Source: Planctomycetota bacterium
Lineage (GTDB): Bacteria; Planctomycetota; Planctomycetia; Gemmatales; Gemmataceae
Assembly (NCBI GenBank): GCA_029777335.1
Contig: JAKOSN010000073.1
Location: 1 to 64,000, forward strand
DNA length: 64,000 nt
Reading direction: 5' to 3'
The notes below the pieces were generated by a model. It saw only the letters and a list, made by a program, of their open reading frames with translations, did no database searches and was not told the DNA's origin. A program made the translations under genes and the position numbers. The first letter of the stretch is position 1. Every line of letters starts with the position of its first letter. Shown piece by piece: positions 38,833 to 48,588 of the stretch.

Positions 38833-40848
38833 ATGACTGAACGCGACTTCCTGGCTGCAATTTGTGCGGCGCCCGAGGACGACGGAGTCCGCCTGGTCTA
38901 CGCGGACTGGCTCGACGAACAGGGTGAGGCACTCCAGGCCGAATATATCCGCACGGCAGTGGAATTCTCCAAAATCAAGGACGAACAAGATTCCCGGCGG
39001 GAAGCCCTCTTCGACCGTGAACAGGAACTGGAACGGTTACACAGTGAGTCCTGGCGACAGCGTCTCGCGAGTTACCTTCCGGCACATCTGCAAAGCTGGT
39101 GCTGGTCCGATCTGCACTTTGTCCGTGGCCTGCCCAGTTCGGTCAACGCGGACTTCTCCCGGTTCGCTCGGGATGCGGACGAACTGATGCGCGTTTTCCC
39201 CATCACCAGCGCGTTCCTTCGTGTGAAGGAACCAGACGACGTTGCTTTACTGGGCTCCACCGCAGCGTTCCGTTCTTGTTCATGGTTGTCGCTGCATGCA
39301 CCCCCGGAACTGGGCCACGCGGCGATCCAGGCCATCGTGACGTCGCCTCATTTGAGCCAGTTGAGATCGCTTCAATTGTTCAATCTCACGATGGGGGACG
39401 AGGGGCTCCTGGCCCTCGCCGAGGCCGCTGCTCGTTTTCCGCGCCTGGAGATGCTGGAGTTGACCCGCGCGGGAGTCACTGGAATGGGGGTTGCTGCGTT
39501 GGCTCGCAGTCCCTTGATGGCCCAGCTGCGGAGCCTCTGGTTGAGGGAGAACGCGATCGGAAGGGATGGATTGCGCGCCCTGGCCAGAGCGGAGGCGCCG
39601 CTACTCGAAGAGTTGTGGCTGCCGGGAACCCAGCTCGGCAACGTTGGGTCGATTCTGGCAAAAGCCCGGTGGCCGGCCCTGTGGAGGCTCGATCTCGATC
39701 ATAGCGAACTGCACCCTTCCAGCCTGTCAGCACTGCTACGCTCAAAGTGGTTCCCTCGGCTTCGCGAATTGACCCTGCGCGGACTGGTGTTCTCCCAGGG
39801 GACCAGAGCGAGATCGAACGCTCCGCGGCCTGTAGCCTTGCGCAGTCTCTCGCTCGGATCCCCCACACTAAGCGACGCTGGACTGTTGCAGCTACTGGAA
39901 CCCTTCCAGTTTCCCGAGCTCCGTTCGCTGTGGGTCAGCGATTCCCAGATCGGAGATGCGGCGATCGCTGCCCTGACAGCGCACCCTTGTCAGCACCTCG
40001 GTCATTTGTATCTCATGGACAATCAGATCGGCTCTGCCGGGGCCTGGCGGTTGCTTACCTCGCCGAATCTCCCGGTTTTGCGAGGCTTAAACCTCTACCG
40101 GAATCGGATAGGTACAGGTACGCTCCTCGACACGAGTGCCCCCCCAACCGAGCCTCACCTGGTCCAACTGGATATTGGGAGGAACCCGATGACCCCTGAG
40201 GTCGGGCGAGCGCTTCTGTCTCGTCCAGAGCTGGAGCGATTGGAGGAGTTGAGATTGAGTTACTCCTACCTTGGCCCCGAAGGAGGACAGATCCTGGCAG
40301 ACAGCCGGTTGCCTAACACGCTCCGGAAACTGCTGGCGTGCTTCACGGGCCTGGGCGACGAAGGAGTGATTGACCTGTTGAACGCCCGATTCCTGGGAGC
40401 GCTGCTCGACCTTTCGCTCCAGGGAGTCGGTCTCAGTAGGGAAGGGCTCTCGGCTCTGGTTACGTCGGAGGAACTGGACAGCCTCTTGACACTGCGCCTG
40501 GACCGCAACCCGTTCGGTCCCGAAGGGGGCCGCTTGCTGACATCGGCCCCCTGGTTGCCGCGCCTGACCTGTCTGCATCTGTCCGACACAGCGATCGGCG
40601 ACGAGGGAGTGACCGCGCTCGCCAGATGTCCGAACGTACGCCGACTTGGATTCCTGGGTCTAAATGCAGTCGGATTGACACCCGTGGGCGCCCGCGCCTT
40701 GCTGGAATCCCCCTACTTCTCGCGGGACATGCACCTCCACCTGGCCGAGAACGCGCCGGAGGTTCAGGACGAACTGGGCACGGCTCTCGCCGCACGATTC
40801 GCTGAGGTAGACTACAAGCGGCACCCTCACGTGGACATGGCCTGGTAA
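38833..40848 (+). CDS. Leucine-rich-repeat protein with TIGR02996 domain
   Basis: A 671-residue protein without signal peptide. Residues 1-40 (TERDFLAAICAAPEDDGVRLVYADWLDEQG) are the TIGR02996 repeat-companion domain, abundant in Gemmata and relatives. From about residue 140 to 640 run irregular leucine-rich repeats of the ribonuclease-inhibitor type (for example LRSLQLFNLTMGDEGLLALAEAA, LTCLHLSDTAIGDEGVTALARCP), roughly 15-18 units, many with GDEG or GPEGG turns. These make a curved protein-binding surface. The partner is unknown. A start-proximal AGAGG lies ten bases upstream of the ATG. Confidence 0.9.
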   Translation: MTERDFLAAICAAPEDDGVRLVYADWLDEQGEALQAEYIRTAVEFSKIKDEQDSRREALFDREQELERLHSESWRQRLASYLPAHLQSWCWSDLHFVRGLPSSVNADFSRFARDADELMRVFPITSAFLRVKEPDDVALLGSTAAFRSCSWLSLHAPPELGHAAIQAIVTSPHLSQLRSLQLFNLTMGDEGLLALAEAAARFPRLEMLELTRAGVTGMGVAALARSPLMAQLRSLWLRENAIGRDGLRALARAEAPLLEELWLPGTQLGNVGSILAKARWPALWRLDLDHSELHPSSLSALLRSKWFPRLRELTLRGLVFSQGTRARSNAPRPVALRSLSLGSPTLSDAGLLQLLEPFQFPELRSLWVSDSQIGDAAIAALTAHPCQHLGHLYLMDNQIGSAGAWRLLTSPNLPVLRGLNLYRNRIGTGTLLDTSAPPTEPHLVQLDIGRNPMTPEVGRALLSRPELERLEELRLSYSYLGPEGGQILADSRLPNTLRKLLACFTGLGDEGVIDLLNARFLGALLDLSLQGVGLSREGLSALVTSEELDSLLTLRLDRNPFGPEGGRLLTSAPWLPRLTCLHLSDTAIGDEGVTALARCPNVRRLGFLGLNAVGLTPVGARALLESPYFSRDMHLHLAENAPEVQDELGTALAARFAEVDYKRHPHVDMAW

Positions 40849-41171: not shown

Positions 41172-42746
41172 ATGCGACACGGCTTGGTGGTTCTTTTGGT
41201 GTGGTCGATCACGGCTCTCGGCTTGCGCGCCGATGAAGAGACGGCGGTCATGGCGATCCAGAAGATCGGCGGCATGGTCATCCGCGATGGGAAGAAACCA
41301 GGGAAACCTGTCACCCAAGTGATTCTCAACGGTGCCAGAGCGACAGACGCCGTCATGAAAGAGTTGCACAACTTCCCTCAACTCACCTGGCTCCACCTCG
41401 GCAACGCACGCGTGACCGACGAGGGCCTGAAGGAACTGCGCAATCTCCCTGAACTCACCACGCTCCATCTCCATGTCACGCCAGTGACGGACGAAGGAAT
41501 GAAGGAACTAAAAACTCTCAGCAAGCTCAAAACGCTGGGTCTCTTTGGGACCAGGATCACGGATGCAGCACTAAAAGAATTGAAAGCAATCCCGCAGTTA
41601 ACCACGCTCAATCTAACGAGCACCAAGATAACGGATGCCGGGCTGAAAGAGGTGAAGGAGATGAAACACCTCTCCTCACTCAGTCTGACCAACACGAAGG
41701 TCACCGATTCCGGCCTCAAGGAATTGAAGGATCTTGAACATCTCAGCACACTCTACCTCAGCGGTACGAAAGTGACGGACGCAGGAATCAGGGAGCTAAG
41801 GGATTTCAAACAGCTCACCATACTGGGGCTGGGCCGAAACCAGATCACGGACGCGGGGATGAAGGAACTTAATCACCTCAAACAGCTCACCTCGCTGGAT
41901 GTCGCGGAAACAAAGATCACAGATGCTGGACTAAAAGAATTAAGTGATCTTCAACAACTCACCACGCTCTACTTTTTCCAAACAGCGGTGACGGCTGAAG
42001 GATTGAAGGAACTCAAAGCTCTCAAGCATCTCACCTCGATCTTTCCTCCAGATTCGGCCTTGACCGACGAGGGTCTGCACTCCCTCGCCGAGATCGGTCT
42101 ATTGCACGCGCTCGATCGGGCAAGCGGAGTCCCTGGAAAACGCCCCACGAACGACGCCGAGGTGCATTCATTCTCGCTGGCTGGTGCGAAAGTGACCGAT
42201 GCAGCATTGAAGGAACTGAAAGTTTTCAAACAACTCACCACGCTCGATCTTCGCAACACCAGAGTGACACCCGCCGGTTTGAAGAACCTCAACGGTCTCA
42301 AGATGCTGAATCATGTGCAGCTTTCTCCCTCCGTGTTGACCGATGAAACCCTGCATAACATGGCAGAGATCGGTCTGCTCCACACCCTGGACATGGCACA
42401 GGGAGTCGGTGGAAATCGTCCGAGTGATGCCGCCACCGTTTACACGGTGTCTCTGAACAGAGCGAAAGTGACCGATGCCGGGTTGAAGGAATTGAAGGTG
42501 TTCACGCAACTCCGAACTCTGGACCTCGGCAACACCGCCGTGACGGACACGGGGCTGAAGGAACTGAAAGAATTCAAGCAACTGAGCACATTGATCCTGA
42601 CTCGAACACCGATCACGGATGCCGGATTGAGCGCGTTGAAAGACATTCCAACGCTCAACCTCGTGAGCCTGAGTGGAACCAAGGTGACAAAAGAACGGGT
42701 GGCACAATTGGCAAAAGAGATGCCTAAGCTCCGTATTGTTCGGTAA
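41172..42746 (+). CDS. Secreted leucine-rich-repeat protein with very regular repeats
   Basis: A 524-residue exported protein (signal peptide about 1-20, GLRA-DE). From residue about 74 to 290 there are near-identical 24-residue repeats of the form LTxLxLxxTKITDAGLKELKxLKQ. Residues 295-366 and 387-458 are a higher-order duplication, each containing LTDExLHxxAEIGLLHxLDxAxGV, a GxRP turn, then a standard repeat pair. AGGAG lies eight bases before the ATG. The regular repeats suggest recent expansion by recombination. It follows another LRR gene but is not similar to it outside the repeat type. Likely a protein-binding surface outside the cytoplasm. Confidence 0.9.
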   Translation: MRHGLVVLLVWSITALGLRADEETAVMAIQKIGGMVIRDGKKPGKPVTQVILNGARATDAVMKELHNFPQLTWLHLGNARVTDEGLKELRNLPELTTLHLHVTPVTDEGMKELKTLSKLKTLGLFGTRITDAALKELKAIPQLTTLNLTSTKITDAGLKEVKEMKHLSSLSLTNTKVTDSGLKELKDLEHLSTLYLSGTKVTDAGIRELRDFKQLTILGLGRNQITDAGMKELNHLKQLTSLDVAETKITDAGLKELSDLQQLTTLYFFQTAVTAEGLKELKALKHLTSIFPPDSALTDEGLHSLAEIGLLHALDRASGVPGKRPTNDAEVHSFSLAGAKVTDAALKELKVFKQLTTLDLRNTRVTPAGLKNLNGLKMLNHVQLSPSVLTDETLHNMAEIGLLHTLDMAQGVGGNRPSDAATVYTVSLNRAKVTDAGLKELKVFTQLRTLDLGNTAVTDTGLKELKEFKQLSTLILTRTPITDAGLSALKDIPTLNLVSLSGTKVTKERVAQLAKEMPKLRIVR

Positions 42747-43146: not shown

Positions 43147-44853
43147 ATGGCCAAAGATAGAACCATGATCACGCGCACTCCCTGGGTCCTGCTCCCGTGC
43201 ACCCTCCTGTTTAGTTTCACGACGGTCCAGGCCGCCGATCCGCCAAAACCAGTGAAGGTGTTCATTCTCGCCGGCCAGTCCAACATGGAAGGGCAAGCCG
43301 TCGCGGACCTTGAAGGCAAGGATTACAACAACGGCAAGGGGACTCTCAAGGCTCTTCTGAAAGATCCCGCCAGGGCCCCGCTCGTCAAGCATCTGGTAAC
43401 CGACAAGGGCAAGTGGACCATTCGCGAAGACGTCTGGGTGCGTTACCAGCGGGAGAAGCGACCGCTGCTCGCCGGTCCACTCACCATCGGCTTTGCAGTG
43501 TATGGAGGCACCCATCACTTCGGCCCGGAATTGCAGTTTGGTCACGTCGTGGGTGATCACTTCACCGAGCAGGTTCTCCTGATCAAAACCGCCTGGGGTG
43601 GCAAGAGTCTCTATCGAGACTTCCGTCCCCCCAGTTCCGGGGGCGTGGTTGGCCCCTACTACACGAAGATGCTCGCCGAGGTTCGTGAGGCGCTGGCGAA
43701 CCTGAAGACTGACTTCCCAGGGTACGCTGGCCAGGGTTACCAACTCGCCGGCTTTGTGTGGTATCAGGGGTGGAACGACGGGGTGGATCCCAAACACGCC
43801 ATTCCGGAGTACGAGCAGAACCTGGTCAACCTGATCAAGGATGTGCGCAAGGATCTCAAGGCCCCGAACCTCCCGGTGGTGGTCGGCGAGTTGACCGGCC
43901 CGTGGGTCGATGCGCCGGGGGAGTGGGCGACCCTGCGCAAGGCGCAGGCAGCTGCCACCACCCGACCCGAGTTCCGAGGGAACGTGTTATTTGTTCCCAC
44001 CCACGATTTTGTCCGCGCTGCGCAGGAGTCTCCAAACCCGGGGCACGGGCATCACGAGTTTGGTAACGCCGAGACTTACTTCCTTGTTGGCGACGCCCTT
44101 GGCAAGGGGATGCTCAAACTCGTCACGCAGCTACCCAAACGCCCCGAACCACCAAAAAGAAAGGCCGAGCCCGCCAAACCGACGTCGCACACTGTCAAAA
44201 CTCTTGAAGGTTGGACCATTCGTGTGGACGACCGCTTGCTGAAGGCTCCCAATGACGAAGTGGGCACCCGCGCCCTTCGGTTCCTTGAAGCGAAACTCCA
44301 GGATATCAAGGCGGTGGTGCCGGCGGACAAGGTCAAGAAACTCCAGGCGGTGACCATTGTGCTGGATCTGACCCACGGGGATCTCGGCCCCATGCAGTAT
44401 CACCCCGATGCGGGCTGGCTCAAGGCGAACGGCTATTCCCCAGACCTGGCCCGATGCGTCCACCTCCCTCGGGCCGCGGAGGTGGCCACCGTGCGCAACA
44501 TTCGGGAGCAACCGTGGGTGATCTTGCACGAGTTGGCCCACGCCTATCACGATCAGGTGCTTGGTTTCGAGGAACCGCGGATCAGAGAAGCGTACGAGAA
44601 ATACAAAAAAAGCGGGCGTGGTGAAAAGGCTCTCCTGTACGATGGCCGGCGCGTCAAGCACTATGCGTTGACCGACCACAAGGAGTTTTTCGCCGAGATG
44701 ACGGAGAGCTACTTCGGTGTGAATGACTTTTTCCCCTTCAACCGCGCCGAGTTGAAAGAGGCAGAACCCGCGATCTACGAACTGATGCAGTATGTCTGGG
44801 AAACTCCGCCCGCAAAGAGCCAGAAGAAAACCTCCCCCGCTGAGAAGCGCTAA
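43147..44853 (+). CDS. Secreted SGNH carbohydrate esterase fused to a zinc metallopeptidase-like domain
   Basis: A 568-residue exported protein with two enzymatic halves. After the signal peptide (ending VQAA-DP) residues 35-330 form a sialate-O-acetylesterase/CE6-like SGNH domain: the nucleophile Ser45 in LAGQSNMEG, IKTAWGGKSL, FVWYQGWND, and a C-terminal His near 299-303. A Pro/Lys-rich linker (about 330-345) leads to a domain (about 348-550) with the zinc motif HELAH (461-465) and a downstream Glu in FFAEMTESYF (about 517-520) that could be the third ligand. The first half should remove acetyl groups from glycans; the second resembles lethal-factor-like peptidases. The start could also be the ATG at 43165. 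Confidence 0.85.
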   Translation: MAKDRTMITRTPWVLLPCTLLFSFTTVQAADPPKPVKVFILAGQSNMEGQAVADLEGKDYNNGKGTLKALLKDPARAPLVKHLVTDKGKWTIREDVWVRYQREKRPLLAGPLTIGFAVYGGTHHFGPELQFGHVVGDHFTEQVLLIKTAWGGKSLYRDFRPPSSGGVVGPYYTKMLAEVREALANLKTDFPGYAGQGYQLAGFVWYQGWNDGVDPKHAIPEYEQNLVNLIKDVRKDLKAPNLPVVVGELTGPWVDAPGEWATLRKAQAAATTRPEFRGNVLFVPTHDFVRAAQESPNPGHGHHEFGNAETYFLVGDALGKGMLKLVTQLPKRPEPPKRKAEPAKPTSHTVKTLEGWTIRVDDRLLKAPNDEVGTRALRFLEAKLQDIKAVVPADKVKKLQAVTIVLDLTHGDLGPMQYHPDAGWLKANGYSPDLARCVHLPRAAEVATVRNIREQPWVILHELAHAYHDQVLGFEEPRIREAYEKYKKSGRGEKALLYDGRRVKHYALTDHKEFFAEMTESYFGVNDFFPFNRAELKEAEPAIYELMQYVWETPPAKSQKKTSPAEKR

Positions 44854-44889
44854 ACCATCCAGATCACCAGGCCACACAGAGGATTGTCC

Positions 44890-45966
44890 ATGCCACGCCA
44901 TCTCCTCTCCCGCCGCGAGTTCGTTGCCACTGCTGCGGCCGCCGTTTCTCTCCCCTGCACCCTTCGCGCCGAGAAGCCGCAGCCCAGGGACGAGCCAGTC
45001 GCGTTCTTTCTCGTCGGAGATACCCATTTTCTTGCCGACAAGGAGAACCCCACCAAACTCAACAAGCGATCCGCGACCGTGACCGCACGGCTGGTTGATT
45101 GGCTCAATAAACTCCCCGGTACAGCGATTCCCAGGGAAGCGGGCGGAGGAACGGTGCTCGCACCTCGCGGGGTCATCCACGCCGGCGACTGCATCGATAC
45201 CGGAGACAAGGCCAATGTGAAGATGCAGGAAACCGAATGGGCAGCATTCACCGACGCCTACGGCCTCACGGGGAAGGACGGCCGACTGAAGGTGCCGGTT
45301 TACGAGGTTCATGGCAACCACGATAGCCCACGGGGCGACGGCCTGGTGGTCAAGAAGATCATTGCACGCAACAAGACACGCCCGGGGGTCACGCGCACCT
45401 CCCAGAACGGGGTTCACTACTCGTGGGATTGGGGCGGAGTTCACTTCGTCAATCTCGGCATCGTTGTCGGCCAGGTGGCGAGCGTAACTCGCAAACGCCG
45501 CTATGGTCCGCTTGGCAGCCTCGATTTCCTGGTGCGCGATCTGAAGGAGAAGGTTGGCACATCGGGTAAACCAGTCGTTCTCACCCATCATGTCGATATG
45601 CTCCGCTATGCGAAACCGCTGCCGATCGAGGAGAAGAAGGCAGAGGGGATGGAGTGGGACCCGGCGGACGTGAAGGGCTTCCACGACGCCCTGAAGGGGT
45701 ACAACATCGCGGCAATTCTCTACGGCCACACCCACGCCCGAAACGTCTTCCGCTGGGACGGCTCCGCCAAACCTTCGAAAACGGGGATCCCCACGTTCAA
45801 CGTCGACAACAGCAGTCACTTCGGCGGCTCGCAGCAAGCCTTCTTCTACTTTGAAATCCACCCCGACAGGCTGATTGTCCGCGAGTACCAGACCAACAAC
45901 GCCTGGGAGACCGGAACGTGGACCCCGCAAACGTGGACCGCTCCAATCCCCGCGACCAGGAGTTAA
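44890..45966 (+). CDS. TAT-exported calcineurin-like metallophosphoesterase
   Basis: A 358-residue exported phosphoesterase. The N-terminus LLSRREFVATAAAAVSL is a twin-arginine signal. Metal-binding blocks appear in order: FLVGDTHF, IHAGDCIDTGD, EVHGNHDS, VVLTHHVD and LYGHTHARN. These bind two metals and hydrolyse phosphomonoesters or diesters. The C-terminus (TFNVDNSSHFGGSQQAFFYFEI) is a beta strand cap. The ATG has GAGG seven bases upstream; an in-frame TTG two codons earlier is less likely. It starts 36 bases after the esterase fusion and 75 bases before the glycosidase gene, so these three are probably co-transcribed. The natural substrate is unknown. Confidence 0.87.
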   Translation: MPRHLLSRREFVATAAAAVSLPCTLRAEKPQPRDEPVAFFLVGDTHFLADKENPTKLNKRSATVTARLVDWLNKLPGTAIPREAGGGTVLAPRGVIHAGDCIDTGDKANVKMQETEWAAFTDAYGLTGKDGRLKVPVYEVHGNHDSPRGDGLVVKKIIARNKTRPGVTRTSQNGVHYSWDWGGVHFVNLGIVVGQVASVTRKRRYGPLGSLDFLVRDLKEKVGTSGKPVVLTHHVDMLRYAKPLPIEEKKAEGMEWDPADVKGFHDALKGYNIAAILYGHTHARNVFRWDGSAKPSKTGIPTFNVDNSSHFGGSQQAFFYFEIHPDRLIVREYQTNNAWETGTWTPQTWTAPIPATRS

Positions 45967-46041
45967 CGTCCCCTTGGCCGAAATTCCAGGAGGCGTGCCA
46001 CGCCGCGTTCTGCACTCACAACTGGCAATACTGGAGCTCTC

Positions 46042-48588
46042 ATGCGATTGGTACGCTCCCTCCTCGCCGTACTGGCGGTTTGCAGCCTCACGATCCCGAC
46101 CGACGCGGCCGAACCGTTGCTCGCCCCGCAACCGCTCCTCGACCACGAGACATTCTGGGACAACAAGGATTGGGACTGGTACAAGGCGAATATCCCGTTC
46201 TTTGAGTGCCCGGATGCCGATCTCCAGACCACCTACTACTATCGCTGGGAGTTGCTGACCAAGCACCTCACCTACGGCTCGCCGAACAGCGGCTATTCCT
46301 TCACCGAGTTCATCGATCGGCCGTTCTGGTCCGGGGCCTACGGAGCTATTTCGTGTCCGGCAGGGCACCAACTCTACGAGGCCCGCTGGTTGCGCACTCC
46401 TCGCTACGCGCGCGACTACGCCCGCTACTGGTTTCGCACTCCCGGCGCGCAGCCACGCAACTACAGCACCTGGCTTGCGGATGGAGTGTGGGCGGTCCAT
46501 CGTGTCCATCCCAACGACGCCTTCCTGATCGATCTCCTTCCTGACCTCAAGAAAAACTACCACGGCTGGGAGGTGCGCCATTTCGTCCCGGAGGTAGGAC
46601 TGTTCTGGCAAACCGGGCACGACGACGGGATGGAATTCAACATCAACAGCCGGCAAACCAAAGACATCCTGCGCGGGGCACCGGGTTACCGACCAACGCT
46701 CAACGCCTACCTGTGGGCCGACGCCCTGGCGATTGCGCGCGTCGCCGAGCTGGCGGGCGAGAAGGCGACCGCCGACGTCTATCGCGTGAAGGCAGCCCAG
46801 CTCAAGGAGAACCTCCAGAAGAAACTCTGGGATCCCAAACGACACTTCTTCTTCCCCCTGTCCCAGCGGGACGAGGAGGCCGACGGCTTCAAGGTCAAGG
46901 CACTGTCACTCACCCATCAAACCGGCCGCTACGCAGGGAGCGAATACGGCCGTGAGTTGATTGGCTATGTCCCCTGGCAATTCTCGCTGCCGGACAGCGG
47001 GAAAGGCTACGAGGTGGCGTGGAAGAAATTGATGGACAGAGATGGCTTCGCCGCCCCCTTTGGCCCGACCACGGTGGAGCGCAAGGATCCGATGTTTCTG
47101 CTCAAGAAAACCTGCTGCTGGTGGAGCGGACAGTCGTGGCCGTACGCCACCAGCCAAACGCTCAAGGCGCTGGCGAACCTCCTCCAGGGTTACGAGCAGA
47201 ATACGATCACCAAAACCGAATACGTGAAGTTGCTGACCACCTTCGCAAAGACGCACCGAAAGAACGGCAAACCCTACCTGGCCGAGGCGTGCCACCCGGA
47301 TACCGGCTCGTTCGAGGGCCACGACGGGTATAACCACAGCGAACATTACTTCCACTCGTCCTTCAACGATCTCGTCATCACGGGACTCGTCGGCATCTGT
47401 CCGCGCGACGACGACACCCTGGAAGTAAAACCCCTGGCTCCCGAGGACTGGGCGTACTTTGCTCTCGATAGCGTACCCTATCGCGGACACCTCCTCAGTG
47501 TCCTCTGGGACCGCGACGGCACCCGCTACAAGCGTGGGAAGGGTTTGAAACTCTACGCGGATGGGAAGGAAATCGCTGCTTCTCCAACGCTCGCCCCGCT
47601 CAAAGCCAAACTCTCTGCGCGGGCACAGGCGCCTCTGCCCGCGAGCACTCCCGTCAACTTTGCCGTGAACAACGACGGCACCTATTTCCCTCGAATCTCC
47701 GCCACGTATGCGCATCCACGAACCTCGATTGCGAAGCTGACCGACGGCAACTACTGGTATCATCGCGACCCGCCCAACCGCTGGACCTGCGAGGGTTCTC
47801 CCCATGCCAGCGATTCGGTCGTCGTTGATTTCGGCACCAAACGGACGGTTCACACAGCCAAGCTGTACTTCCTTGAGGACAACAGGGGCGTTGTTCCGCC
47901 AACAAAAGTGCAGCTCGATTACTGGGACGGCAAGGAGTGGAAAGCGATCCCAGGAGCGATCCCTACCCCGGAGAAACCAACGGGGCGACGCGCCAATGTC
48001 ATCCGTTTCCCCACCCTGACGACAACCAGGGTGCGTGCGGTCTTCCAGCATGCCACGCGGGGCAAGACCGGGATGACCGAGTTCGAGGTGTGGGGCGACG
48101 CTCGGTTGCCACTCGATACTCCTCCTCACCCGACGGGGAACCTCGCCTACAATCCGGGGGATCGACCCTTCCCAAAGGCCAGTGCCTCCTATGCAGATCG
48201 ATTTGGAGGCAAACCTGCGCTGGCCATCGATGGGAAGACCAATTTCCTCCCCACGCCCACCAATCGCTGGACCAGCTACGAATCCCCTCACGAATCGGAC
48301 TGGCTCGAAGTGGACTTCGGCGCGGAGAAGACGTTTACGCGCATCGAACTCGCCATCTACGACGATCGCGGGGGTGTGCAGCCCCCCAGCCGTTACGACA
48401 TCGAATACTGGGAGGGGAAAGCATGGCAGCCGGTGAAGAACGCCCGCAAATCCCCGGAAAAACCGACAGGAAGTGAGTTCAACGAGGTGCGGTTCGATCC
48501 GGTCAAGGCAAGCAAGGTTCGGGTGGTCTTCACACACGCGGGGAAGGCACGAAGCGGAGTTTCCGAACTTCTCATCTGGAATGACTGA
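46042..48588 (+). CDS. Secreted (alpha/alpha)6 glycosidase with two discoidin domains
   Basis: An 848-residue exported enzyme. After the signal peptide (DAA-EP) the catalytic part (about 30-510) has the look of the MGH1/GH63-like (alpha/alpha)6-barrel group: LQTTYYYRWELLTKHL, DDGMEFNIN, LNAYLWADALAIARVAELAG, KKTCCWWSGQSWPYATSQTLKAL and SFEGHDGYNHSEHYFHSSFNDLVITGL. Candidate acids are in DDGME and in EACHPDTGSFEG. Residues about 545-690 and 700-848 are two F5/8-type C (discoidin) domains sharing NRWT, VDFG, NRGVVPP/DRGGVQPP and WDGKEWK/WEGKAWQ. They probably bind glycan. Substrate unknown. GGAG lies five bases before the ATG. Confidence 0.85.
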   Translation: MRLVRSLLAVLAVCSLTIPTDAAEPLLAPQPLLDHETFWDNKDWDWYKANIPFFECPDADLQTTYYYRWELLTKHLTYGSPNSGYSFTEFIDRPFWSGAYGAISCPAGHQLYEARWLRTPRYARDYARYWFRTPGAQPRNYSTWLADGVWAVHRVHPNDAFLIDLLPDLKKNYHGWEVRHFVPEVGLFWQTGHDDGMEFNINSRQTKDILRGAPGYRPTLNAYLWADALAIARVAELAGEKATADVYRVKAAQLKENLQKKLWDPKRHFFFPLSQRDEEADGFKVKALSLTHQTGRYAGSEYGRELIGYVPWQFSLPDSGKGYEVAWKKLMDRDGFAAPFGPTTVERKDPMFLLKKTCCWWSGQSWPYATSQTLKALANLLQGYEQNTITKTEYVKLLTTFAKTHRKNGKPYLAEACHPDTGSFEGHDGYNHSEHYFHSSFNDLVITGLVGICPRDDDTLEVKPLAPEDWAYFALDSVPYRGHLLSVLWDRDGTRYKRGKGLKLYADGKEIAASPTLAPLKAKLSARAQAPLPASTPVNFAVNNDGTYFPRISATYAHPRTSIAKLTDGNYWYHRDPPNRWTCEGSPHASDSVVVDFGTKRTVHTAKLYFLEDNRGVVPPTKVQLDYWDGKEWKAIPGAIPTPEKPTGRRANVIRFPTLTTTRVRAVFQHATRGKTGMTEFEVWGDARLPLDTPPHPTGNLAYNPGDRPFPKASASYADRFGGKPALAIDGKTNFLPTPTNRWTSYESPHESDWLEVDFGAEKTFTRIELAIYDDRGGVQPPSRYDIEYWEGKAWQPVKNARKSPEKPTGSEFNEVRFDPVKASKVRVVFTHAGKARSGVSELLIWND

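Follow-up and report, generated by a model that had tools for sequence, protein, structure and literature searches.

The window analysed, a stretch of 64,000 nucleotides from a Planctomycetota bacterium of the family Gemmataceae (contig JAKOSN010000073.1), contains a gene in which a SASA-type carbohydrate esterase is joined in frame to a zinc-peptidase-like domain, and we consider with moderate confidence that this Gemmataceae fusion is a bifunctional enzyme exported for degradation, with an acetylesterase and a single-zinc endopeptidase held on a flexible tether. In the mechanism proposed, the N-terminal SASA-type domain would remove O-acetyl groups from a glycan by means of Ser45 and His303, and the C-terminal domain, a predicted single-zinc gluzincin (H461, H465 and E513, with E462 as the base, and Y506), would cut peptide bonds in protein. 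Being flexible, the linker would allow the two halves to work on different parts of a complex substrate, for instance a glycoprotein or cell-wall material of plants or algae. The peptidase itself would be a PVC-wide catalytic module that has been repeatedly attached in evolution to different exported hydrolases. It is a guess that the two halves share a glycoprotein as their substrate.

The open reading frame (43147-44853, + strand) is uninterrupted and encodes 568 aa. The product looks like an exported protein, judging from a Sec-like N-terminus with the end VQA-AD, as read by eye in the translation. The putative Sec signal peptide (residues 1-30, 43147..43236, + strand) was delimited by a hydrophobic stretch, this VQA-AD end, the N-termini of homologues and the low pLDDT of residues 1-24 in the full-length model. 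Translation probably starts at Met7 (43165) rather than at 43147, since the homologue N-termini align from Met7. Between the esterase domain (residues 36-327, 43252..44127, + strand) and the peptidase-like domain (residues 347-555, 44185..44811, + strand) lies a Pro/Lys/Glu-rich linker (residues 328-346, 44128..44184, + strand), which varies in sequence and length among homologues and has a pLDDT of ~48 in the block 331-340, with confident domains on either side. In the full-length model, residues 331-337 are disordered and the pTM is only 0.57, so the two confidently modelled halves appear loosely tethered, with an uncertain mutual placement. The earlier note had described one chain with an esterase and a zinc-peptidase motif joined by a linker, and the open frame, the SASA match and the linker modelled as disordered bear this out. 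An antisense ORF of 904 codons (44134-46845, - strand) was dismissed as the mirror of three supported + strand genes; it is probably not a gene but a consequence of G+C-rich codon usage.

The esterase domain was assigned from its Pfam profile match, Foldseek and conserved blocks. Pfam SASA (PF03629) matched residues 36-271 at 4e-26 with 92.4 bits, above the gathering score of 24.8, and the search of the full model against the PDB by Foldseek revealed an SGNH fold, with E values ranging from 4e-11 to 9e-7 for the solved SASA relatives At4g34215 (2apj; 4e-11, TM 0.70 on the target), the C. acetobutylicum protein (1zmb; 5e-9), XAC1771 (7kmm), NanS (3pt5) and SIAE. The GQSN nucleophile pointed out in the earlier note is Ser45, inside the PF03629 match, and it is accompanied by WYQGWND at 205-211 and by His303; the homologue alignments show no variation at Ser45, in the GWND block or at His303. 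In its above-cut-off Pfam match, SGNH fold, GQSN, GW-N-D block and C-terminal His, this half resembles the SASA / sialate O-acetylesterase-like esterases, and it is predicted to be an ordinary esterase acting in O-deacetylation, but it has H-G-H-H instead of D-x-x-H and carries the appended peptidase module. The DxxH Asp at -3 from His303 is missing across the SASA subfamily (H300-G-H-H303 in the window), a feature that the earlier note did not pick up, and remoter homologues of the esterase have QGYH at this position. The esterase triad is incomplete by sequence because this canonical Asp is absent. The subfamily has a NAET motif (window residues 295-311), and the acid of His303 may lie elsewhere. 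FI8 (PDB 9h4u), among the Foldseek matches listed, is a carbohydrate esterase with a 'diluted', non-canonical triad, and the window esterase is also without the usual Asp.

The peptidase half was defined from an alignment of 81 members, sub-cut-off M90 and ATLF matches, hhalign and a domain-only model with a mean pLDDT of 94.3. When 84,980 species genomes were scanned, 83 relatives of the domain were confirmed and 80 of them kept; their hosts, both MAGs and isolates, belong to Planctomycetota, Verrucomicrobiota, Kiritimatiellota, Lentisphaerota and, in two MAGs, Armatimonadota. Across the 81 sequences, which are 35-83% identical to the window, H461, E462, L463, H465, Y506, E513, F515, A516, E517 and E520 are invariant, as are H419, W424 and N526. 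The HELAH zinc motif (residues 461-465, 44527..44541, + strand), already recognised in the earlier note, aligns to the HEFAH of M90, and it is not a chance HExxH because the zinc-site residues are invariant over 81 divergent sequences. Downstream, the stretch from Y506 to E513 and E517 (44662..44697, + strand) has the same Y-x6-E register as M90 and lethal factor. This register and the invariance make H461, H465 and E513 the most likely zinc ligands, and E462 and Y506 are predicted to act as the base and the transition-state stabiliser, respectively. The Glu put forward earlier as the candidate third ligand was thus right in kind, but the residue is best assigned as E513, the first Glu of EFFAE, and not as E517, because E513 lies seven residues past Y506, the exact spacing of MtfA and lethal factor. 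HELAH is found on helix 112-126 and EFFAE on helix 165-177 (domain numbering), and the full-length model has helices at 458-472 and 511-523. We infer that the ligands converge on one zinc from the invariance, the homology and the high-confidence model with HELAH and E513 on successive helices. An HExxH with a conserved downstream Glu, the combination that marks gluzincins (clan MA), is therefore present.

Comparison with known peptidases placed the domain at a distance from all of them. The M90 Pfam profile matched the window at 20.6-22.3 bits (cut-off 26.2) over the C-terminal 105 of 243 positions only, and the ATLF profile (PF07737) at 19.7-22.1 bits (cut-off 27.4); 71 of the 81 members match ATLF, only weakly, the best at 1.3e-6. 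By hhalign, true MtfA/M90 genes from related genomes, where they occur separately alongside the peptidase module, align over 99 columns with 97.5% probability (E 7e-12) and an identical register. The best match of the family profile against PDB sequences is lethal factor, a weak one (E 0.011), and the Tyr and Glu of its YxxTNxxEFFAE segment align with Y506 and E513. NCBIfam has no model for the window and only sporadic weak matches among the 81 members, and no M60 profile matched the window or any of the 81. Searching the domain model against the PDB with Foldseek gave nothing at E ≤ 0.001, the best being M1 aminopeptidases at E 0.054, and the best sub-significant matches (E ≥ 0.054, TM ~0.3) are nearly all gluzincin- or collagenase-like (M1, the M60-like AM0627 and BT_4244, M61 and M9). 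Because these best matches are of such kinds and none is significant, the domain appears to be a zincin remote from any solved structure, and membership of M90, M34 and M60 was rejected on cut-offs or coverage.

With MtfA / M90 (PF06167) the domain shares HExxH, the Tyr-x6-Glu register and a C-terminal half of ~100 residues that profiles can align, but its scores are mostly below the cut-off, its N-terminal half is unalignable and the window protein looks exported, whereas MtfA is cytoplasmic. HExxH, Y-x6-E and the FFAE core are likewise shared with the lethal-factor type (M34 / ATLF), but that match is sub-cut-off and covers the C-terminal part only, the type is not among the Foldseek matches listed, and the window protein has a degradative partner instead of toxin delivery domains. 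Secreted Pro-Pro endopeptidases are placed near the lethal-factor-type peptidases, PPEP-1 in a lethal-factor-like fold. The M60-like O-glycopeptidases or mucinases (AM0627, BT_4244 and OgpA) are comparable as secreted gluzincins that cut glycoproteins in glycan-degrading bacteria, but their Foldseek matches are not significant (E 0.4-3.6, TM ~0.35). The peptidase domain is thus best described as a predicted divergent gluzincin, kin to MtfA/M90 and the M34 fold over its C-terminal half only, in a family that Pfam and NCBIfam leave uncovered and whose mechanism is predicted to be that of a gluzincin. A literature search found no description of the SASA-peptidase fusion or of the module, nor a peptidase of this family that has been characterised.

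The in-frame SASA-peptidase fusion was observed in 20 genomes of several genera, the window included, with one copy ending at a contig edge. The 19 complete full-length members aligned share 60-82% identity with the window, and locus L160 is a more remote case, with these two domains fused as well. The earlier note had asked whether the fusion occurs elsewhere; it does, the domains are not always separate in relatives and there is no frameshift here. This recurrence led us to reject a frameshift or an assembly error as the cause of the fusion; the sole frameshifted copy is L103. The fused genes of L024 and L025, from MAGs labelled Armatimonadota, cluster together inside the planctomycete SASA-peptidase family, a placement that reflects either lateral transfer or mis-binning. 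The peptidase module was present in 72 of 244 drawn Planctomycetota genomes, and one half or the other (SASA or peptidase) was matched in 78 of the 95 genomes in the family. In the window genome itself, a single unfused paralogue of the peptidase (58%) is found, along with several genes for SASA only.

The peptidase module is mostly found alone (86 of 136 tree rows), with close homologues of the window domain among the unfused copies, and is otherwise fused to a sulfatase (two loci), GH95, apiosidase-like GH140, GH39, DPP-IV/S9 peptidase, amidase, beta-lactamase-like protein, FAD amine oxidase or cytochrome c/DUF6797, in N-terminal, C-terminal or internal position. This range of unrelated secreted partners had escaped the earlier note. 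There are 10 GH95-peptidase loci, three Pfam-scanned and the others placed here because their length and their position in the tree match, and six DPP-IV/S9 loci, three of them scanned. At L062:3071-4657 and L073:2867-4651, the peptidase has a second HExxH module of another kind (HEFAH, partly EYFAE) ahead of it in the chain, so that two zincin-like domains stand in tandem. Cytochrome c and DUF6797 combine with the module in four arrangements across L012, L015, L096, L124, L115, L116 and L117 (those of L115, L116 and L124 assigned by length), namely cytochrome c-DUF6797-peptidase, SASA-peptidase-cytochrome c-DUF6797, cytochrome c-DUF6797-SASA-peptidase and S9-peptidase-cytochrome c-DUF6797. 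The unit follows the SASA-peptidase pair in L015 and precedes it in L096 and L124, the last assigned by length and position. These arrangements suggest that the module is functionally tied to this poorly known redox unit; DUF6797 was mentioned in none of the papers searched.

The genes downstream of the fused one code for a metallophosphoesterase, a glycoside hydrolase of MGH1-like type that carries two F5/8 type C domains, an SMP-30-like protein, a glucuronoyl-esterase-like protein and a PF00756 esterase, so the window neighbourhood is one of predicted carbohydrate degradation. Two leucine-rich-repeat genes lie just upstream, at 41172-42746 (Pfam LRR) and 38833-40848 (by eye). Conservation of the neighbourhood is essentially nil, as only one of the seven window neighbours, the MGH1-like glycoside hydrolase at 46042, recurs beside one fused homologue (L095). 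Beside stand-alone copies, sulfatases make up 6 of 34 adjacent same-strand ORFs, with neighbours called roughly by ORF length, and the whole genomes of relatives carry ~4-29 sulfatases; in this small sample, an enrichment is suggestive. In many Opitutales-type loci (L061, L065, L066, L068, L069, L071, L074-L078, L082 and L083), a small ORF of ~131-133 codons stands 0-12 bp before the stand-alone peptidase gene and a ~313-codon gene often comes after it, and the three form a possible conserved operon.

The main rival to a functional coupling, which we hold to be possible with a distinctly lower probability, is genome mechanics: adjacent genes for exported enzymes would often fuse and split in large genomes, leaving independent halves with unrelated substrates. 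The phylogenies fit it nearly as well, since all architectures need 27 changes on the 136-row peptidase tree, where the SASA label alone needs 10, at least 6 of them forced by well-supported branches, and fused versus unfused SASA needs 4 on the SASA tree, where gain and loss are indistinguishable. The many unrelated partners at both ends of the module point the same way, as do six SASA-only genes, 77-81% identical, that end cleanly just past the domain. Because close SASA and peptidase homologues exist as separate genes, coupling would not be essential, and a glycan-specific rationale is weakened by the diversity of the partners, which include non-glycan enzymes. Nevertheless, every partner with a Pfam assignment is an enzyme or a redox protein, in most cases of an exported type. 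The SASA-peptidase pair is also retained in ~20 genomes, including within larger proteins with cytochrome c/DUF6797 on either side (L015 versus L096 and L124), which suggests some selection for the pair.

Two further readings appear unlikely. In the first, one half would be dead or no peptidase, with SASA serving to bind carbohydrate or the zincin hydrolysing non-peptides; the missing DxxH Asp and the lack of a characterised peptidase-family member in the literature searched fit this, but neither Ser45 and His303 nor the GWND block varies, esterases with non-canonical triads such as FI8 exist, and zinc-site residues that are all invariant in 81 sequences would be unusual for dead enzymes. The second, similarly doubtful, extends the bifunctional enzyme to a new peptidase family acting as a mobile PVC cartridge, which would cut proline-rich or glycosylated plant and algal wall proteins while its partners (acetylesterase, sulfatase, GH95, apiosidase-like, GH39 and DPP-IV), acting in cis, strip the glycoprotein that it attacks; proline-rich substrates are hinted at because the DPP-IV partner recurs and there is a distant kinship to the lethal-factor type, with its Pro-Pro endopeptidases. 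Least probable is that the peptidase serves its host chain or cell by processing, releasing or maturing exported enzymes and not by digesting external protein, for which speak its junction to very different exported enzymes, as might be expected of a maturation or release factor, and the precedent of PPEP-1, a secreted Pro-Pro endopeptidase that cuts adhesion proteins and thereby releases the cells producing it (PMC11460543), but against which stand its variable position in the chain, the predominance of stand-alone copies and the unconserved linkers, in which no common cleavage site is seen.

Planctomycetes and Verrucomicrobia play a major part in the degradation of complex biomass. Hardly any of their multi-module enzymes have been characterised, and for planctomycete CAZymes a single characterised case has been noted (PMC11131199). 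The point of most interest is that one catalytic module is promiscuously joined to many enzyme types. Neither Pfam nor NCBIfam has a model for this module, its active-site residues have stayed invariant, and its partners comprise at least nine further types of enzyme or redox protein; its description would name an unlabelled protein-cutting step in biomass degradation, and the peptidase family could give a proper name to genes that now weakly match lethal-factor or MtfA models.
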